A stretch of 50,520 nucleotides of DNA, from contig WQSW01000007.1 in the NCBI GenBank assembly GCA_009787695.1, forward strand, positions 4,061 to 54,580, read 5' to 3'. This stretch comes from Treponema sp. Lineage in GTDB: Bacteria > Spirochaetota > Spirochaetia > Treponematales > Breznakiellaceae. The position numbers were made by a program, and so were the translations under genes. Positions 787 through 8,576 of this stretch are shown piece after piece (position 1 is the stretch's first letter; each line of letters starts with the position of its first letter). The notes under the pieces are model-generated. The model was not told where the DNA came from. It saw only the letters and a program-made list of their open reading frames with translations, and searched no databases.

Positions 787-2298
787 TTATTTTTTACCGG
801 AGTATAATGTAAACTCCATCTTTTCTTTGTTCTGCGAAAGCATACTAAGCCATAGATTTTTTTTCTTTGTTATTTCTTTGCTTTTGCGTCCTATGCCGCG
901 CATTTTTTCAAAAATATGAACACCGCTTTTTGCGGCAGTCCATGTCTTGTAATGATTGCCGAAAATTTGCTCTGCTTTTTCATCTACTTCTTTATCAATA
1001 TGTTTTTCAAAAGCATCAAGAAGAAGCTGGTATTTTTCTGTTATTCCTTTAAGGTAATCAAGTATCAATCTGTCGAAAGCATGGATTTTTTCACTGACCT
1101 CAATCAAATAATATAAGTACTCCACAGCAAGATAATAATCTTCGCTGACACAATAAGCTTTCATTGCCTGACGGCAAAGCTGTATATAAGATTCGTTTGT
1201 AACAGTTTGCATTGCATTAATCGGCATGGAAGGCACAACAGAAAATTTCGGCATGGATTGTGCAACACGCGTTAATAATTCCATTAAATCCTGAAAAATT
1301 CTTTGTTCCCATAAATTTTCTTTTATAGATGAAAAAAGATTTGTTAAGTCCTCTGCAAATTTTTCTTTGTAGCGTTCGTTTTTATCAAAAACAACTTCGC
1401 AGGTTGGAATCATAACACCTTTAAATTCAATATGCCCTGTATCAAAAAAGTAAATTGCATCTTTTTGTTTTAATATACAAACATTCTCTTTGTTCTCTTT
1501 ATTTTCTTTTTCATAATTCATCATAACCTGTTTTGCGATCATAACCTTCGATTCTTTGGGAGATAATTCATTCGCTCTTGTTTGCAGTCTTGCTCCTGAA
1601 TTAAGAAGGAAGCCTGCAAGATTTCCCCTCTCTGTAATAATAAGCGGGCTTTGGGTGTTTCCTCCCGTAATGCCACCTGAAATTTTAAAAGGAGGCAAGG
1701 CTTCTGCATTTCCTGTCCGTTTTGTTGAAATATCAGGATCGCCTACTATATCTGTTTTTCCAAAATAATCTATTATACACAATGTTACCATTAGCGCGTC
1801 TGTGGCACTCGCTGCCACTACAACCATTTCATCTCCGCGTTCCCTTTGACTGATCGCGCCGCACTGAGTGGAAATACGTTTTATTTCGTTCTCTATTGCC
1901 CAATCTAAATTATGCATCATCGACAAGTTTTTTCTGGATTCCATGCAGAACTTGGTATAGCCGTGTATGTCTAGCATCGCTACATACAGGTTTGATATTT
2001 GCAGAGTCTTTTTTAAATCACCGGCTTCGGGAAAATCCCTGTCTTGAATTACAACTTCTTTCCATAACTTTTTATGCGTATTCGGGCAGATAGATGCAAA
2101 GAAACCCCAATTAAGGCGTTTTATCATTTGAAAGGCACGCAAAATAACAGGATGCGTCCATTTATCTTTCAATACAGGGGCGGCTAATTCTCTTAACTTG
2201 GAAAAAGAAGTAACTTCTTTAATAATGATTTTATCGTAGAGGAATGAGAAGAATTCATGCTCTGTCATCCCGCTGTTGTACTCGTTAATATTTTTCAC
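787..2298 (-). CDS. Class III adenylate/guanylate cyclase-like protein
   Basis: A 503-residue soluble protein. Residues about 104-290 look like a class III nucleotide cyclase homology domain. The segment LYVAMLDIHGYTKF places D110 where the first metal-binding Asp sits, and RERGDEMVVV places D156 at the second. FKISGGITGG and the later LLNSGARLQTRANEL match the conserved 'GI..G' and 'N.AARL...A' regions. No membrane segment or known sensor domain is visible; the N-terminal ~100 residues and C-terminal ~200 residues are unassigned helical sequence. Start is GTG at 2296-2298 with AGGG upstream. Cyclase activity is inferred; transition-state residues are not clearly conserved, so it could be a degenerate cyclase. 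The cNMP-binding proteins at 16039-18071 could respond to a cyclic nucleotide. Confidence 0.65.
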   Translation of the reverse strand: MKNINEYNSGMTEHEFFSFLYDKIIIKEVTSFSKLRELAAPVLKDKWTHPVILRAFQMIKRLNWGFFASICPNTHKKLWKEVVIQDRDFPEAGDLKKTLQISNLYVAMLDIHGYTKFCMESRKNLSMMHNLDWAIENEIKRISTQCGAISQRERGDEMVVVAASATDALMVTLCIIDYFGKTDIVGDPDISTKRTGNAEALPPFKISGGITGGNTQSPLIITERGNLAGFLLNSGARLQTRANELSPKESKVMIAKQVMMNYEKENKENKENVCILKQKDAIYFFDTGHIEFKGVMIPTCEVVFDKNERYKEKFAEDLTNLFSSIKENLWEQRIFQDLMELLTRVAQSMPKFSVVPSMPINAMQTVTNESYIQLCRQAMKAYCVSEDYYLAVEYLYYLIEVSEKIHAFDRLILDYLKGITEKYQLLLDAFEKHIDKEVDEKAEQIFGNHYKTWTAAKSGVHIFEKMRGIGRKSKEITKKKNLWLSMLSQNKEKMEFTLYSGKK

Positions 2299-2401
2299 TT
2301 ACACCCTGCCAATTATCATTATAGTATACAATTAAAAAAAATAACAGTCTAAAAAAGGTTGATACATAAAACCTTTTAAGATATTATTGCAAATAGGGAA
2401 A

Positions 2402-2947
2402 ATGGAATCTGTAATTTTATTAAATAATTCCGCTGTCGCATTAACTGAGGCAAATAAGCCTTTTGAAGCTATCTCTCTGTTTCAGAAAGCGTTAATATTA
2501 GAACCTGAAAATCCTATGCTCTGGCTGAATATGGGTATTGCCCAGCAAAAAACAGGAGAATATAATATTGCAATAGAAAGTTTCCGGCACAGCCTTACAT
2601 TTGACAATAACTTAACTGAAGCATGGTATTCCTTAGGATTGATTTATTACGAGATGAATGAATTTGTATTATCAGAAAATTGCTATAAATCCGCTATTTT
2701 ATGTAATGACAATGATCCAAAAATATGGAACAACTTAGGGGTTCTCTACTTTAATCTGGAAAAAAACGATGCAAAAACATCGTTAGAACAGGCGCGTGAA
2801 TGCTTTGAAAAAGCTCTAAGCCTTTGCCCTCATTTTTTCGATGCGCTTTATAACTTGCGCGATACTTGCAGGGAATTAAAAGATTACAGAGCCGCAGCAG
2901 AATTTGAAAGGATACTTTCAGCATTTCAGGATATTGATAATAAATGA
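2402..2947 (+). CDS. Tetratricopeptide-repeat (TPR) protein
   Basis: About 181 residues made of consecutive 34-residue helical repeats. Repeat hallmarks include AISLFQKALILEPENPMLWLNMGIAQQ, in shorter form AIESFRHSLTF and AREAFEKALSL-like segments (here ARECFEKALSLCPHFFDALY). It is a scaffold for protein-protein contacts; no signal peptide or catalytic domain is seen. The ATG at 2402 is preferred. A TTG five codons upstream (2387) is possible, but neither has well-spaced Shine-Dalgarno sequence. The stop overlaps the start of the YmdB-like gene (ATGA at 2944-2947), so the two are translationally coupled and probably function together. Confidence 0.8.
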   Translation: MESVILLNNSAVALTEANKPFEAISLFQKALILEPENPMLWLNMGIAQQKTGEYNIAIESFRHSLTFDNNLTEAWYSLGLIYYEMNEFVLSENCYKSAILCNDNDPKIWNNLGVLYFNLEKNDAKTSLEQARECFEKALSLCPHFFDALYNLRDTCRELKDYRAAAEFERILSAFQDIDNK

Positions 2948-3777
2948 AAATTCTATACATAGCGGAACTTGTAGGTAAAGCAGGAGTATTCACCTTTAAA
3001 AAAGCGCTCCCTGAACTTAAATCACGTTACAAGTGGGATTTTTTAATTGTAAATGCAAACGGAGCCACAGGCGGCAACGGGCTAGGCCGCAGTCATGCCG
3101 CTTACATTCATAAACTGGGAGCAAATGTAATTACCTTAGGGGACTGCTGTTTTTATAAAAAAGATTTAACAGAAAATTTAGATAAGATACGCTTTGTACT
3201 GCGCCCGGAAAACTTAAATCCGGAATCTCCTGGTTTTGGTTCTTTTATTTACAAAGCAGGCAATACAGGCGAAAAAATAGCTGCCTTAACGCTCATGGGA
3301 CAAAACGGTTTTAACCGCTTGCACGCTAACAACCCCTTTAGCATTCTTCCGTCTTTATTGGAACGATTAAGAAAACAAACCCCTTACATCATCATTGATT
3401 TTCACGCGCAGGCAAGCGCGGAAAAAAAGACACTCTTTTATGCGGCGGACGGTCTTTGTTCTGCGGTAATCGGCTCGCACACCAGAGTTCAAACAGCAGA
3501 TGAAACTATCCTCCCAGGCGGTACTGCTGTAATCAGCGATGCAGGCAGAACAGGAAGCTTCCAATCGGTAGGAGGCTGCGATATTCATTCCCGCATTAAA
3601 GAATATTTAACGGGAATCCCCGACTGGACAAAAGATGCATGGGACGAACTTGAAGTACAGGGAGTGTATCTTGATATCGGCAAAGACGGAAAAGCAACTT
3701 CCATAGAAAGAGTGCGTATTGGGGTTACTAAACAAATAAATGATCAAGAAGATGAAACAACCTCAGCTTCGTGTTAA
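2944..3777 (+). CDS. YmdB-family phosphoesterase homologue with degenerate active site
   Basis: 277 residues, the usual length for the YmdB/TIGR00282 calcineurin-like family (phosphodiesterase acting on cyclic nucleotides). The overall pattern is retained: MKILYIAELVG, GGNGLG, NVITLG, IIDFHA, GSHTRVQTADE and SVGGCDIHSRI. However, most metal and catalytic positions differ from the family consensus. The Asp of 'GDIVG' is E8, the E-N pair of 'NGENAAGG' is N39-G40, the 'GNH' motif is G66-D67-C68, and the second His of 'THTHV' is R181. H154 and H179 remain. I therefore infer a binding or scaffold protein rather than an active phosphodiesterase. It is coupled to the TPR gene by a 4-base overlap. 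Confidence 0.8.
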   Translation: MKILYIAELVGKAGVFTFKKALPELKSRYKWDFLIVNANGATGGNGLGRSHAAYIHKLGANVITLGDCCFYKKDLTENLDKIRFVLRPENLNPESPGFGSFIYKAGNTGEKIAALTLMGQNGFNRLHANNPFSILPSLLERLRKQTPYIIIDFHAQASAEKKTLFYAADGLCSAVIGSHTRVQTADETILPGGTAVISDAGRTGSFQSVGGCDIHSRIKEYLTGIPDWTKDAWDELEVQGVYLDIGKDGKATSIERVRIGVTKQINDQEDETTSASC

Positions 3778-4595: not shown

Positions 4596-6404
4596 ATGTT
4601 TCAGATAATGAAAAAGGGCCGGTCTTTAATTAAACCTGTTTTTTCTTTTAATAAAAGCGGTAAATTTCTGCTGATCTCCTCTATTGCTTTCCTTTTATTT
4701 TTCTTAATCAGCAGTACCGCTTTTATAATTTTAATGGATCGAATCCTTCTAAAAAACGCAGGACAGGAATTAACGAAAACAGTTGAACTTGAACGTCTTA
4801 AATTACAGGCTTCCATAAACAGCGAAATCGCTATTGTTTTAAAAATGACGGACTCTCCTTTAATAAAAAGATATTTTTCTAACCCTGCAATTAATGAACT
4901 TGAAATACTTGCCTTTGAAGAATTTGCAGCATACAGAAGAGCATTCACTGCGAAATCTGTATTTTGGGTTAATGATATCGACAAGCTTTTTTATTCAGAC
5001 GATTATGAACCATACAAAGTAGACCCTGAAAATCCTGATAATTACTGGTATTTAATGACCCTCCATGAAACAGAAATATATAATTTTAATATTAATTATA
5101 ACCCTGATCTGAATGTAACAAACCTTTGGATCAATGCGCCTGTTTTTGATAATGATAATAAACCGATTGGGATTGTCGGAACAGGTATCAATTTATCGGA
5201 TTTTATTGATACTATTTACCATAATGATGACATCAATAATAATTTATATTTTTATAATTCATCAAGAGAAATTACCGGTGCTAAAGATATAGAGCTTGTT
5301 GCAAAAAAAATTAAAATAGATGATGAACTTGAAAAAATAAATAAGGAAATTCTTTTAAAACTAAATGATCCTAACACATCTTTAAACAATACAAACGGAA
5401 TTATTAACTTTCAAACAAAGATTAATAAAGGAGTTGCGGTTATCGCTTCAATTCCTGATTTGGATTGGTATGCCATTTCATTTGTACGTTTTACAATTTG
5501 GGATTCTTTAAAAACAGGAATGACTGTTCTATTTTCAATTTTAATGATCGTAATGTTAATTGTGTTTATTTCTGTTTATATTATTCACGAATCAAAACTT
5601 GCAAAAAGCCGTGCAGAGGCTGCAAGAGAAGCTGTCCTTTCCAGTATTGAATATGCAAGTAAAATACAAACTAACCTGCTCCCGGATGAAACTGCATTTA
5701 AAAATGCTTTTTCAGATTATTCGATTATATGGAATCCTAAAGATATAGTAAGCGGTGATATTTATTGGCTGAAAAACTTTAAAGAAGGTTCTGTCCTTTG
5801 TGTTTGCGATTGTACAGGGCACGGAACACCCGGCGCGCTTTTAACAATGCTTGCAGTCTCCTCTTTTGAAGCATCAGTTACGGAAAAAAACTGCAAAGAC
5901 ACTGCAAACATAATTTGGGAACTTGAAAAAAGACTTACAACTGTGTTAAACGCAAAAAATCTCGATAACGCAAACAAAGGGCTTTCCATAAAAGACGGCT
6001 GCGATCTTGCTGTTTTATTTATTTCTAATAACGGGGATATTATTACCTCTTCCAGCCGAATCCATATTTTTATTTGCGACGGAGAAAATGTCACACAAAT
6101 TAAAGGGCAAAAACTTTCAATCGGCGAAGGCATTTTAAAAAGCAAAGAGCTGATAAAAACCGTGCAAATCCCTGCAAATAAAAATAATAAATTTTATATC
6201 GCTTCTGACGGTTTATATGATCAAATCGGCGGGGAAAAACATATTCCGTTTTGTTACGAAACATTCAAAAATATTATTCTTGAAAACCACAATATAAGTC
6301 AGGAGAATATCTCTTTAAAAATTTGGACAGCATTTGAAGAATACAGAGGCGAAAAGCCCAGAGTAGATGATTTTGAATTAATAACTTTTAAACCAAAAAC
6401 TTAA
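4596..6404 (+). CDS. siaA: SiaA-like PP2C/SpoIIE phosphatase with extracytoplasmic sensor
   Basis: 602 residues. A membrane segment at about 26-50 is followed by a ~250-residue extracytoplasmic region with dCache-like features (YWYLMTLHE, NLWINAPVFDNDNKPIGIVGTGI). A second membrane segment (about 305-330) comes next, then a short helical linker without an obvious HAMP domain. The C-terminal SpoIIE/PP2C domain has metal-binding aspartates in VSGDIYW, CDCTGHGTPGALL, ASDGLYDQ and VDDFELI. In Pseudomonas SiaA is the phosphatase that dephosphorylates SiaC. The immediately downstream genes encode the other Sia components, which supports this role. Start is ATG 4596, or ATG 4608; neither has a Shine-Dalgarno, and the -10 box is adjacent. 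Confidence 0.82.
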   Translation: MFQIMKKGRSLIKPVFSFNKSGKFLLISSIAFLLFFLISSTAFIILMDRILLKNAGQELTKTVELERLKLQASINSEIAIVLKMTDSPLIKRYFSNPAINELEILAFEEFAAYRRAFTAKSVFWVNDIDKLFYSDDYEPYKVDPENPDNYWYLMTLHETEIYNFNINYNPDLNVTNLWINAPVFDNDNKPIGIVGTGINLSDFIDTIYHNDDINNNLYFYNSSREITGAKDIELVAKKIKIDDELEKINKEILLKLNDPNTSLNNTNGIINFQTKINKGVAVIASIPDLDWYAISFVRFTIWDSLKTGMTVLFSILMIVMLIVFISVYIIHESKLAKSRAEAAREAVLSSIEYASKIQTNLLPDETAFKNAFSDYSIIWNPKDIVSGDIYWLKNFKEGSVLCVCDCTGHGTPGALLTMLAVSSFEASVTEKNCKDTANIIWELEKRLTTVLNAKNLDNANKGLSIKDGCDLAVLFISNNGDIITSSSRIHIFICDGENVTQIKGQKLSIGEGILKSKELIKTVQIPANKNNKFYIASDGLYDQIGGEKHIPFCYETFKNIILENHNISQENISLKIWTAFEEYRGEKPRVDDFELITFKPKT

Positions 6405-6413
6405 GGAAAAACA

Positions 6414-7139
6414 ATGGATTTATTTGAAAAAGAACAGCATATTTATGATAATGCATATTTACACGCAATTGACGTTAGAAACGGCGCGCCTTTAAATTTG
6501 GAAGAATTTGAAACAATCACAAAAGAATACGGAAAATTATTAAAACATGTACGAAGAATTACAAAACTGGCAGATAAAACTACAATCGATTTATTTGAAA
6601 GCAATATTGATTTAATAGACAAAGCACATCGGGATACACTAACCGGCGTATTTAACAGACGCTATCTGGAAGAAAAAATTAAATTTTTTATTAAAGACTT
6701 ATCACGCTCAAACAGTTTAATGAGTATATTGATGATTGATATTGATTTTTTCAAAAAATATAATGATACATACGGTCATAATAAAGGCGATATCTGTTTA
6801 AAATCTATAGCGGAAATATTTACAGAATGTATATCAAGAGAAGACGATTTTGTGGCGCGTTACGGCGGCGAAGAGTTTGTAATTGCATTGCCTCACACAG
6901 ATGAAAAAGGAGCGCTCTTAACAGCGCAAAAAGTACTTGATAAATTAGCAAGTTATCAAATTCCGCATGAAAAAAATGAAGGTTTAGGTTATGTCACTGT
7001 ATCCATAGGTCTTAGTACAATTAATGTAAAACACACCCATAATCTGACCGATTATATCAAATGTGCAGATGAAGCCCTTTATATTTCAAAACAAAACGGA
7101 CGAAACCGATTTACTTATTTACAATTTAAAGGAGAATAA
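6414..7139 (+). CDS. siaD: SiaD-like diguanylate cyclase (GGDEF)
   Basis: 241 residues. The N-terminal ~70 residues form a helical stalk with no membrane segment. The GGDEF domain starts at DTLTGVFNRRYLEEK, holds the metal/substrate segment MIDIDFFKKYNDTYGHNKGD, and has an intact active-site GGEEF at 151-155. An inhibitory I-site RxxD (R142-D145) lies five residues before it. It should make cyclic di-GMP from two GTP and be feedback-inhibited. It follows siaA by nine bases (AAGGAAAAA ribosome-binding site) and precedes siaC/siaB. In P. aeruginosa SiaC binds and activates SiaD, and the same arrangement of a soluble stalk plus GGDEF is seen here. The SiaD assignment rests mainly on context. Confidence 0.82.
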   Translation: MDLFEKEQHIYDNAYLHAIDVRNGAPLNLEEFETITKEYGKLLKHVRRITKLADKTTIDLFESNIDLIDKAHRDTLTGVFNRRYLEEKIKFFIKDLSRSNSLMSILMIDIDFFKKYNDTYGHNKGDICLKSIAEIFTECISREDDFVARYGGEEFVIALPHTDEKGALLTAQKVLDKLASYQIPHEKNEGLGYVTVSIGLSTINVKHTHNLTDYIKCADEALYISKQNGRNRFTYLQFKGE

Positions 7140-7199
7140 TTTTTTCTTATAGCCATATTTGCAATAAGTATGATAAAATAAAACAGAGGTTATTAAAAT

Positions 7200-7598
7200 A
7201 TGGCAGAAAAACAAGCTGATTTCTTTAAATTAGAAAGGCAAAAATCAACTTCTACTCCCTATATACTAATAGACGAAGAAAAAAATTATATGAAAATAGA
7301 AGGTCTTTGTTTTAATGAAAATGTTATTGATTTTTTTATTGAAATTAATGATTGGCTGGACAAATATCTAAATACTAATTTTAAATTATTTACATTTGAC
7401 TGTGCTATGGAATATTTTAATAGTTCTACTGTTAAAGTACTATTTAATTTGATCATGAAAATGGACGAGGCTTCTTCCGGTGAAAATAAAGTAATTTTAA
7501 ATTGGATAACTGTAAAAGAAAACGAGATAATTATCGAATGCGGAGAAGACTTCCGGGAAGAAGTTATAAATTTAACATTTAATATGGTAATAAATTAA
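7200..7598 (+). CDS. siaC: SiaC-family (DUF1987) regulatory protein, copy 1
   Basis: 132 residues, single DUF1987 domain. The recognisable features are TPYILIDEE, an acidic IEINDWLDKYL helix, FTFDCAMEYFNSSTVK, and NEIIIECGEDF near the end. In P. aeruginosa SiaC a Thr in the equivalent 'YFNTSS' motif is phosphorylated by SiaB and dephosphorylated by SiaA, and unphosphorylated SiaC activates the diguanylate cyclase SiaD. Here the aligned residue is Ser (S75, with T77 nearby), still phosphorylatable. The start ATG has AGAGGT upstream. A 60-base gap separates it from siaD and includes a possible -10 (TATGAT 7169-7174), so the C-B-C part may have its own promoter. Confidence 0.85.
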   Translation: MAEKQADFFKLERQKSTSTPYILIDEEKNYMKIEGLCFNENVIDFFIEINDWLDKYLNTNFKLFTFDCAMEYFNSSTVKVLFNLIMKMDEASSGENKVILNWITVKENEIIIECGEDFREEVINLTFNMVIN

Positions 7599-7617
7599 TT
7601 TTTACAAGGAAAAAAAC

Positions 7618-8196
7618 ATGATCATGGAAATGATAAATTGGCATAAAACGTTAAACGAAAAAAAGATTATTCTGATTTATTCAGGTCCTCTTTGGTCACA
7701 ATGGATAGGAGAGATAGCAGGAACGCTTAAAAAACATCTTGAAATTGATAATATACCGATAAACACATCACAAGAAGTATTCTCTGTATTTATCGAACAA
7801 ATGAATAATATGCTGATGTATTCTGCAGAAAAGATAAAGTTTGAAGTATCTCCTGACAAACAAGAAGTTTATGAATCGCCTAAAGGAATGTTTGTTCTAG
7901 GAAAAGAAGGAAACTCCTATTTTATTCAAACTTGTAATGTAATGAAAAAAGAAAATTCTCTTCTAATTAAAAACAGAATTGATTATTTAAACACGCTTGA
8001 TAAACAAGAGTTGAGAAAATTCTATAAAAAGCAAATGAAAACAGATGATGACAACCCTGAAAGCAAGGGAGCAGGTCTTGGCTTTATCGAAATAGCACGC
8101 AGAATCAGTTCAAAAATAGAATATTCTTTTTCTGATTATGATGAAGGGCTCACCTTTTTTACATTGCATGTAACCATTGGGGGAATAAAAGAATGA
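7618..8196 (+). CDS. siaB: SiaB-family GHKL protein kinase
   Basis: 192 residues. It matches the SiaB/DUF6272 family: IILIYSGPLWSQW near the N terminus, an N-box-like helix VFIEQMNNMLMYS (ATP/Mg binding Asn), and a G-box-like KGAGLGFIEIARRIS. The predicted role is to phosphorylate SiaC proteins using ATP, opposing SiaA. It lies between the two siaC copies; its TGA overlaps the second siaC start by four bases (8193-8196), so translation is coupled. The ATG at 7618 has AAGGA about seven bases upstream; in-frame ATGs at codons 3 and 5 are less well placed. Confidence 0.8.
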   Translation: MIMEMINWHKTLNEKKIILIYSGPLWSQWIGEIAGTLKKHLEIDNIPINTSQEVFSVFIEQMNNMLMYSAEKIKFEVSPDKQEVYESPKGMFVLGKEGNSYFIQTCNVMKKENSLLIKNRIDYLNTLDKQELRKFYKKQMKTDDDNPESKGAGLGFIEIARRISSKIEYSFSDYDEGLTFFTLHVTIGGIKE

Positions 8197-8576
8197 AACC
8201 TTTTAAAATGATATGGGAAAAAACTGACATTACGCCTTTAATAATAATTGACGAAGAAGCAGGATACATGAAGTTCGAAGGAGAATGTTATTGCGAAAAT
8301 GTAAGCGCATTTTTTAAAGAAACCAGCGACTGGTTAAATGAGTTTTTAAAAAAAGATTTTGATTCGTTTACCTTTGACTGTGAGTTTAAATATTTCAGCA
8401 GCGCTACTGTAAAAGTGCTTTTAAATATGCTAATTTGTCTGGATAATTCCAAAAACAGTAAAAATATAACCGTAAACTGGATAGCGGAAAATAAAAATGC
8501 AATTATTATTGAATGCGGCGAAGATTTTAAAGAAGAACTAAAAAATATTTCATTTAACTTAGTAATTAAAGACTAA
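8193..8576 (+). CDS. siaC: SiaC-family (DUF1987) regulatory protein, copy 2
   Basis: 127 residues, clearly paralogous to the protein at 7200-7598. The two share TPxIxIDEE, DWLNEFL/DWLDKYL, FTFDC..(E/K)YF, ATVKVL/STVKVL, AIIIECGEDF/EIIIECGEDF and an (F)NLVIKD/(F)NMVIN tail. The phospho-acceptor motif reads YFSSATVK (S70, T72), differing from copy 1 (YFNSSTVK). Having two SiaC targets for one SiaB suggests either two output proteins or competition for the kinase; this is inference. Its 3' end overlaps the convergent deoC by four bases. Confidence 0.83.
   Translation: MKPFKMIWEKTDITPLIIIDEEAGYMKFEGECYCENVSAFFKETSDWLNEFLKKDFDSFTFDCEFKYFSSATVKVLLNMLICLDNSKNSKNITVNWIAENKNAIIIECGEDFKEELKNISFNLVIKD

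Follow-up and report, generated by a model that had tools for sequence, protein, structure and literature searches.

An apparently undescribed YmdB paralogue of the Spirochaetia with an altered metal site and a probable non-catalytic role

The locus

The window, by which we mean the whole 50,520-nucleotide stretch of Treponema sp. DNA analysed here (assembly GCA_009787695.1, contig WQSW01000007.1), carries a pair of overlapping genes, the first of which is recognized by Pfam TPR profiles and the second of which encodes a 277-residue homologue of the phosphodiesterase YmdB, with an ATG start and a much altered metal site (Table 1). The start codon of the second gene (2944–2946) runs into the TGA of the first (2945–2947), giving a four-base ATGA overlap. 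We refer to the relatives of this altered copy as Y2.

Two other loci in the window deserve mention. The gene of a 503-residue protein, which many relatives conserve at the same place, lies divergent from the TPR–Y2 pair; no worthwhile match was found for it in Pfam, NCBIfam or the PDB, and a cyclase-like stretch (LDIHGYT ... GDE) is discernible by eye and unsupported by profiles. On the other side, a run of genes looks like a SiaABCD-type signalling cluster in which the SiaC gene has been doubled: it encodes a SpoIIE-type phosphatase that includes a sensor-like part, a GGDEF protein, and two proteins of the SiaC family with a DUF6272 protein between them.

Table 1. Features of the window discussed in the text, with the codons of altered positions in the Y2 gene
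Feature	Position	Strand	Remarks
503-residue protein gene	787..2298	-	divergent from the TPR–Y2 pair
TPR protein gene	2387..2947	+	Pfam TPR; uncertain start, either ATG 2402 or the listed TTG 2387
Y2, YmdB-fold paralogue with altered metal site	2944..3777	+	E8, N39, G40, D67, C68, H154, H179, R181, R202
E8 codon (canonical D8)	2965..2967	+	E in 95/96 Y2, D in 52/52 canonical copies
N39-G40 codons (canonical E39-N40)	3058..3063	+	
D67-C68 codons (canonical N67-H68)	3142..3147	+	D/E at 67 in 94/96 Y2
R181 codon (canonical H177)	3484..3486	+	R/K in 94/96 Y2
Motif EYLTGIPDWTK	3601..3642	+	Y2 residues 220-233
Gene run resembling a SiaABCD-type cluster	4596..8576	+	
First SiaC-family gene	7200..7598	+	
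Second SiaC-family gene	8193..8576	+	

A YmdB fold with a dismantled metal site

The family assignment of the protein is clear. The Pfam YmdB profile (PF13277) matches it with 260 bits (cut-off 27; E 2.6e-77) over profile positions 1–253 of 253, and its sequence matches in the PDB are 4b2o, 1t70, 1t71 and 2cv9 only, that is, the four solved YmdB-type structures. An AlphaFold model built from 95 sequences reached a pLDDT of 94.8 and a pTM of 0.92, with the canonical paralogue modelled as a control at a pLDDT of 88.3. Foldseek returned 4b2o, the Bacillus subtilis YmdB, as the top match of the model (TM 0.88/0.93), and VIA-align superposed the two with Z 39.6 and an rmsd of 1.5 Å over 257 residues at 38% identity; DR1281 (1t70), TTHA0625 (2cv9) and the MPN349-type protein (1t71) share the fold at Z 35–37. 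The protein is thus modelled with the calcineurin-like alpha-beta-beta-alpha fold of YmdB, and the complete profile coverage together with the close superposition bears out the original prediction that full family length and fold had been kept. Also common to Y2 and the B. subtilis enzyme are the glycine and R-P-x-N motifs and the equivalents of H150 and H175.

The metal site is another matter. In B. subtilis YmdB it consists of D8, E39, N40, N67, H150, H175 and H177, with H68 and D71 as catalytic residues (PMC10406935). The aligned residues of the window copy are E8, N39, G40, D67, C68, Y71, H154, H179 and R181, so that six of the eight canonical metal or catalytic positions are altered (D8E, E39N, N40G, N67D, H68C and H177R) and only H154 and H179, corresponding to H150 and H175, are retained. 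Every substitution that had been read from the window alone proved correct in the alignment with YmdB-type proteins, and the window copy lacks the YmdB-type two-metal ligand set. In our alignments, DR1281, TTHA0625 and the MPN349-type protein all retain an N-H pair and an H-T-H motif, both of which are missing from the window copy. Two further differences from YmdB are the replacement of M198 by R202 and of W70-D71 by F70-Y71; position 71 was dropped as evidence, since canonical copies also vary there and it is therefore not diagnostic.

The genome of the window holds two copies of the PF13277 family. The second, L001, is a protein of 292 residues that shares about 33% identity with the window copy across 257 aligned positions and carries the complete canonical set, D-E-N-N-H-H-H-H, at all eight positions, which answers the question raised with the original prediction of whether an intact YmdB exists elsewhere in the genome. 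The NCBIfam model TIGR00282 scores the window protein at 202 bits against a cut-off of 254, and we considered and dropped this shortfall as a marker of pseudoenzyme status: because L001, at 239.6 bits, likewise falls under the cut-off, the score does not separate the two copies.

A patterned subfamily throughout the Spirochaetia

A translated scan of named genomes yielded 58 loci related to the window copy, mostly from termite-gut Treponema and their relatives and also from Gracilinema, G. caldarium among them. Across these relatives in the window's family, E8, G40, D67 or E67, H154, H179 and R181 are uniform, C68 is found in 50 of 54, and position 39 is D in 47 and N in 6, the window's N39 being the minority state. 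A short motif further along the protein, EYLTGIPDWTK, is nearly fixed in the window's family and substituted elsewhere; it falls where YmdB has a helix and loops flanking the cleft and may form a partner surface. Searches of the phylum and of the class then recovered the same two-copy arrangement throughout the class Spirochaetia, and Y2 extends into some other classes of the phylum. The families of Spirochaetia with this arrangement include some with genomes of 0.9–1.9 Mb, where the gene order is lspA, Y2, murA; as this order fits Borrelia, we call that group Borrelia-like. No published description of Y2 was found among the titles and abstracts searched, and it is apparently an undescribed subfamily.

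Residues were counted in 96 full-length Y2 proteins and 52 canonical copies. The canonical string D-E-N-N-H-H-H-H occurs in 52 of the 52 canonical copies and in none of the 96 Y2 proteins. Instead, Y2 conserves E8 (95 of 96), an acid at 67 (94), R or K at 181 (94), R202 (88), H154 (88) and H179 (75), the Borrelia-like string being E-N-F-E-N-D-G-R. The changes are patterned, in that an acid is retained at position 8 and mostly at 39, another is gained at 67, and R or K stands at 181. At position 68, that of the general acid, histidine is found in none of the 96; C, K, Q, L, W, S, N and other unrelated residues take its place.

These counts weigh on two simple alternatives. That Y2 is still an ordinary YmdB phosphodiesterase in which the ligand changes are tolerated is highly improbable: the fold and the Pfam match are those of the family, and TIGR00282 recognizes the window copy, under its cut-off, just as it does L001, but E39, N40, H68 and H177 are lost together while the intact paralogue is invariant in all 52 copies. 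A decaying gene or an assembly artefact is scarcely credible and is already refuted by conservation. A few relatives in draft assemblies do have a split frame, as at positions 1097–1999 of L049, where the Y2 frame is divided between two frames by a sequencing error or in a dying copy; the great majority of relatives nevertheless have an open frame, dN/dS is about 0.1, and the same residues appear across independent genomes. Because the window's substitutions recur in related spirochaetes, in dozens of such genomes, they are neither chance nor sequencing error.

Origin, selection and the last histidines

In a maximum-likelihood tree of 88 proteins, all Y2 sequences, including those from other classes of the phylum (families f17, f30 and f43; loci L134–L140), lie on one side of a single branch with support of 100/100. 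This rules out independent origins of Y2, with some caution about long branches, since the positions within Y2 of L126, of L132 and of the Borrelia-like group are unsure. Y2 is under strong purifying selection: by a simple and crude counting method, Y2 has a median dN/dS of 0.10 over unsaturated pairs, and the canonical copies have one of 0.14. Understood as an enzyme homologue that lacks the catalytic residues and is conserved by selection, Y2 is a pseudoenzyme as far as sequence can tell. The original prediction of a pseudoenzyme thus holds in that the YmdB-type catalytic set has gone while fold and selection persist, but a decayed homologue is not what was found; the tree depicts an ancient subfamily of single origin.

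The two remaining histidines cut both ways. Their near-invariance in the window's own family, as in a functioning metal site, counts against a purely binding role. Outside that family, they have been lost repeatedly, the Borrelia-like genomes included, while the gene was retained. The Y2 tree shows 4 changes of state at H154 and 7 at H179; of these, at least 3 and at least 4, respectively, fall on well-supported branches. That the gene outlasts its final metal histidines speaks more strongly than any other finding against metal catalysis as the conserved function.

The serious rival is a rewired enzyme, in which the metal-1 side (D8/H177) would have been converted into an E8–R181 pair and a single metal held by positions 39, 67, 154 and 179 would serve a different chemistry. 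The precedent is MslH, a lasso-peptide epimerase with a YmdB-like fold whose two-metal site has been remodelled for another task: it keeps E44, N87, H88, H259, H261 and H295 and holds one Ca(II), and no second metal, with the equivalents of E39, N67, H150 and H175 (PMC10406935). MslH is among the structural matches of the window model, at a Z of about 16, although it is a different, larger protein, whose acid/base histidines Y2 lacks. The rival is to be taken seriously because 69 of the 96 Y2 proteins combine D or E at 39, D or E at 67, H154 and H179, the four positions that MslH uses for Ca(II), and because the carboxylates at 8, 39 and 67 have been retained or gained, not lost. However, the window copy, with N39, falls outside this set; sister lineages repeatedly lose H154 and H179 yet keep the gene; and the general acid H68 has been swapped for unrelated residues. 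We consider the rewired enzyme unlikely, at roughly one chance in four. As for the prediction that most metal ligands are lost, the altered positions stand, whereas a site that binds no metal at all would be too strong a reading for the window's family, given the 69 Y2 proteins, the window's not among them, that could hold one.

Genomic context

The contexts of the two copies differ. With a strict motif, the RNase Y gene was found ahead of the canonical copy at 12 of 18 distant loci tested, and no RNase Y motif was found beside Y2 at any of 100 loci; the window copy differs from B. subtilis YmdB both in this context and in sharing its genome with an intact YmdB. A TPR gene, conversely, lies directly upstream of Y2 in 56 of 99 testable cases, often with the same four-base overlap, and of none of the 52 canonical copies. 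The translational coupling originally proposed is real at the window, where the genes overlap and the upstream frame scores as TPR, but it is specific to certain lineages, and a universal TPR partnership was dropped because only part of the Y2 loci have the gene. Directly downstream of Y2, lineages further removed from the window's, as well as some members of its own family, have a gene for the membrane protein RseC/MucC; the Pfam PF04246 cut-off was exceeded in 7 of 9 tested, and a home-made profile placed the gene at 36 of 101 loci. RseC was likewise dropped as an obligatory partner, as none was found in the window's genome and some genomes that lack Y2 have RseC. The Borrelia-like genomes have neither neighbour at Y2.

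The copies themselves travel together. The class-wide search found the family in 247 of 296 genomes, nearly all of them with exactly two copies; about 13 genomes among the matches listed have one, mostly in fragmented assemblies. The genomes listed as lacking a match belong to two distinct lineages within a single family, and a LepA tree shows two separate losses there, each of both copies; one row of that tree (G465) represents a wrong reading frame that leaves the two losses unaffected. The genomes lacking both copies include G255, of 1.1 Mb in a single contig, and genera g61–g66 of family f2, whose close relatives keep both. Presence or absence together suggests that Y2 and the intact YmdB act in a shared pathway; the joint loss amounts to about two events within one family.

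A proposed function

We regard the window gene as an ancient YmdB paralogue that has probably lost the two-metal chemistry of YmdB and probably acts through binding instead; that Y2 is non-catalytic in the YmdB sense is likewise probable. A duplicate with the YmdB fold would have given up two-metal phosphodiesterase chemistry and would leave phosphodiesters uncleaved, while E8, the acid at 67, R181 and R202, with E8 and R181 as a putative pair, may form a charged network in place of the former two metals. Y2 would then act as a binding or regulatory subunit. A calcineurin-like fold can serve as an assembly surface and not as an enzyme in VPS29 of retromer, a scaffold with the metallophosphoesterase fold; that protein is eukaryotic and distantly related, and the parallel is one of fold analogy.

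Among candidate partners, the cell's own intact YmdB comes first because genomes nearly always have both copies or neither, followed by lineage-specific neighbours, the TPR protein here and RseC elsewhere; even so, the identification of YmdB as the partner is tentative and somewhat doubtful. A more specific and rather improbable idea is that Y2 has turned from phosphodiesterase into receptor, the former site (E8, acid 67, R181 and R202) holding but not cleaving a phosphorylated ligand, which may be the substrate of YmdB itself, and signalling to the YmdB/RNase Y side; TPR or RseC proteins would be its outlets in individual lineages.

Significance

Almost all sampled Spirochaetia genomes with YmdB carry Y2 too, the Borrelia-like ones included, and the Pfam match of Y2 would prompt annotators to label it an active metallophosphoesterase. 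The subfamily yields predictions at the level of single residues, namely E8, the acid at 67, R or K at 181 and R202. A catalytically altered twin kept class-wide beside the active enzyme is a concrete example on which the recruitment of a paralogue into regulation or assembly can be tested.
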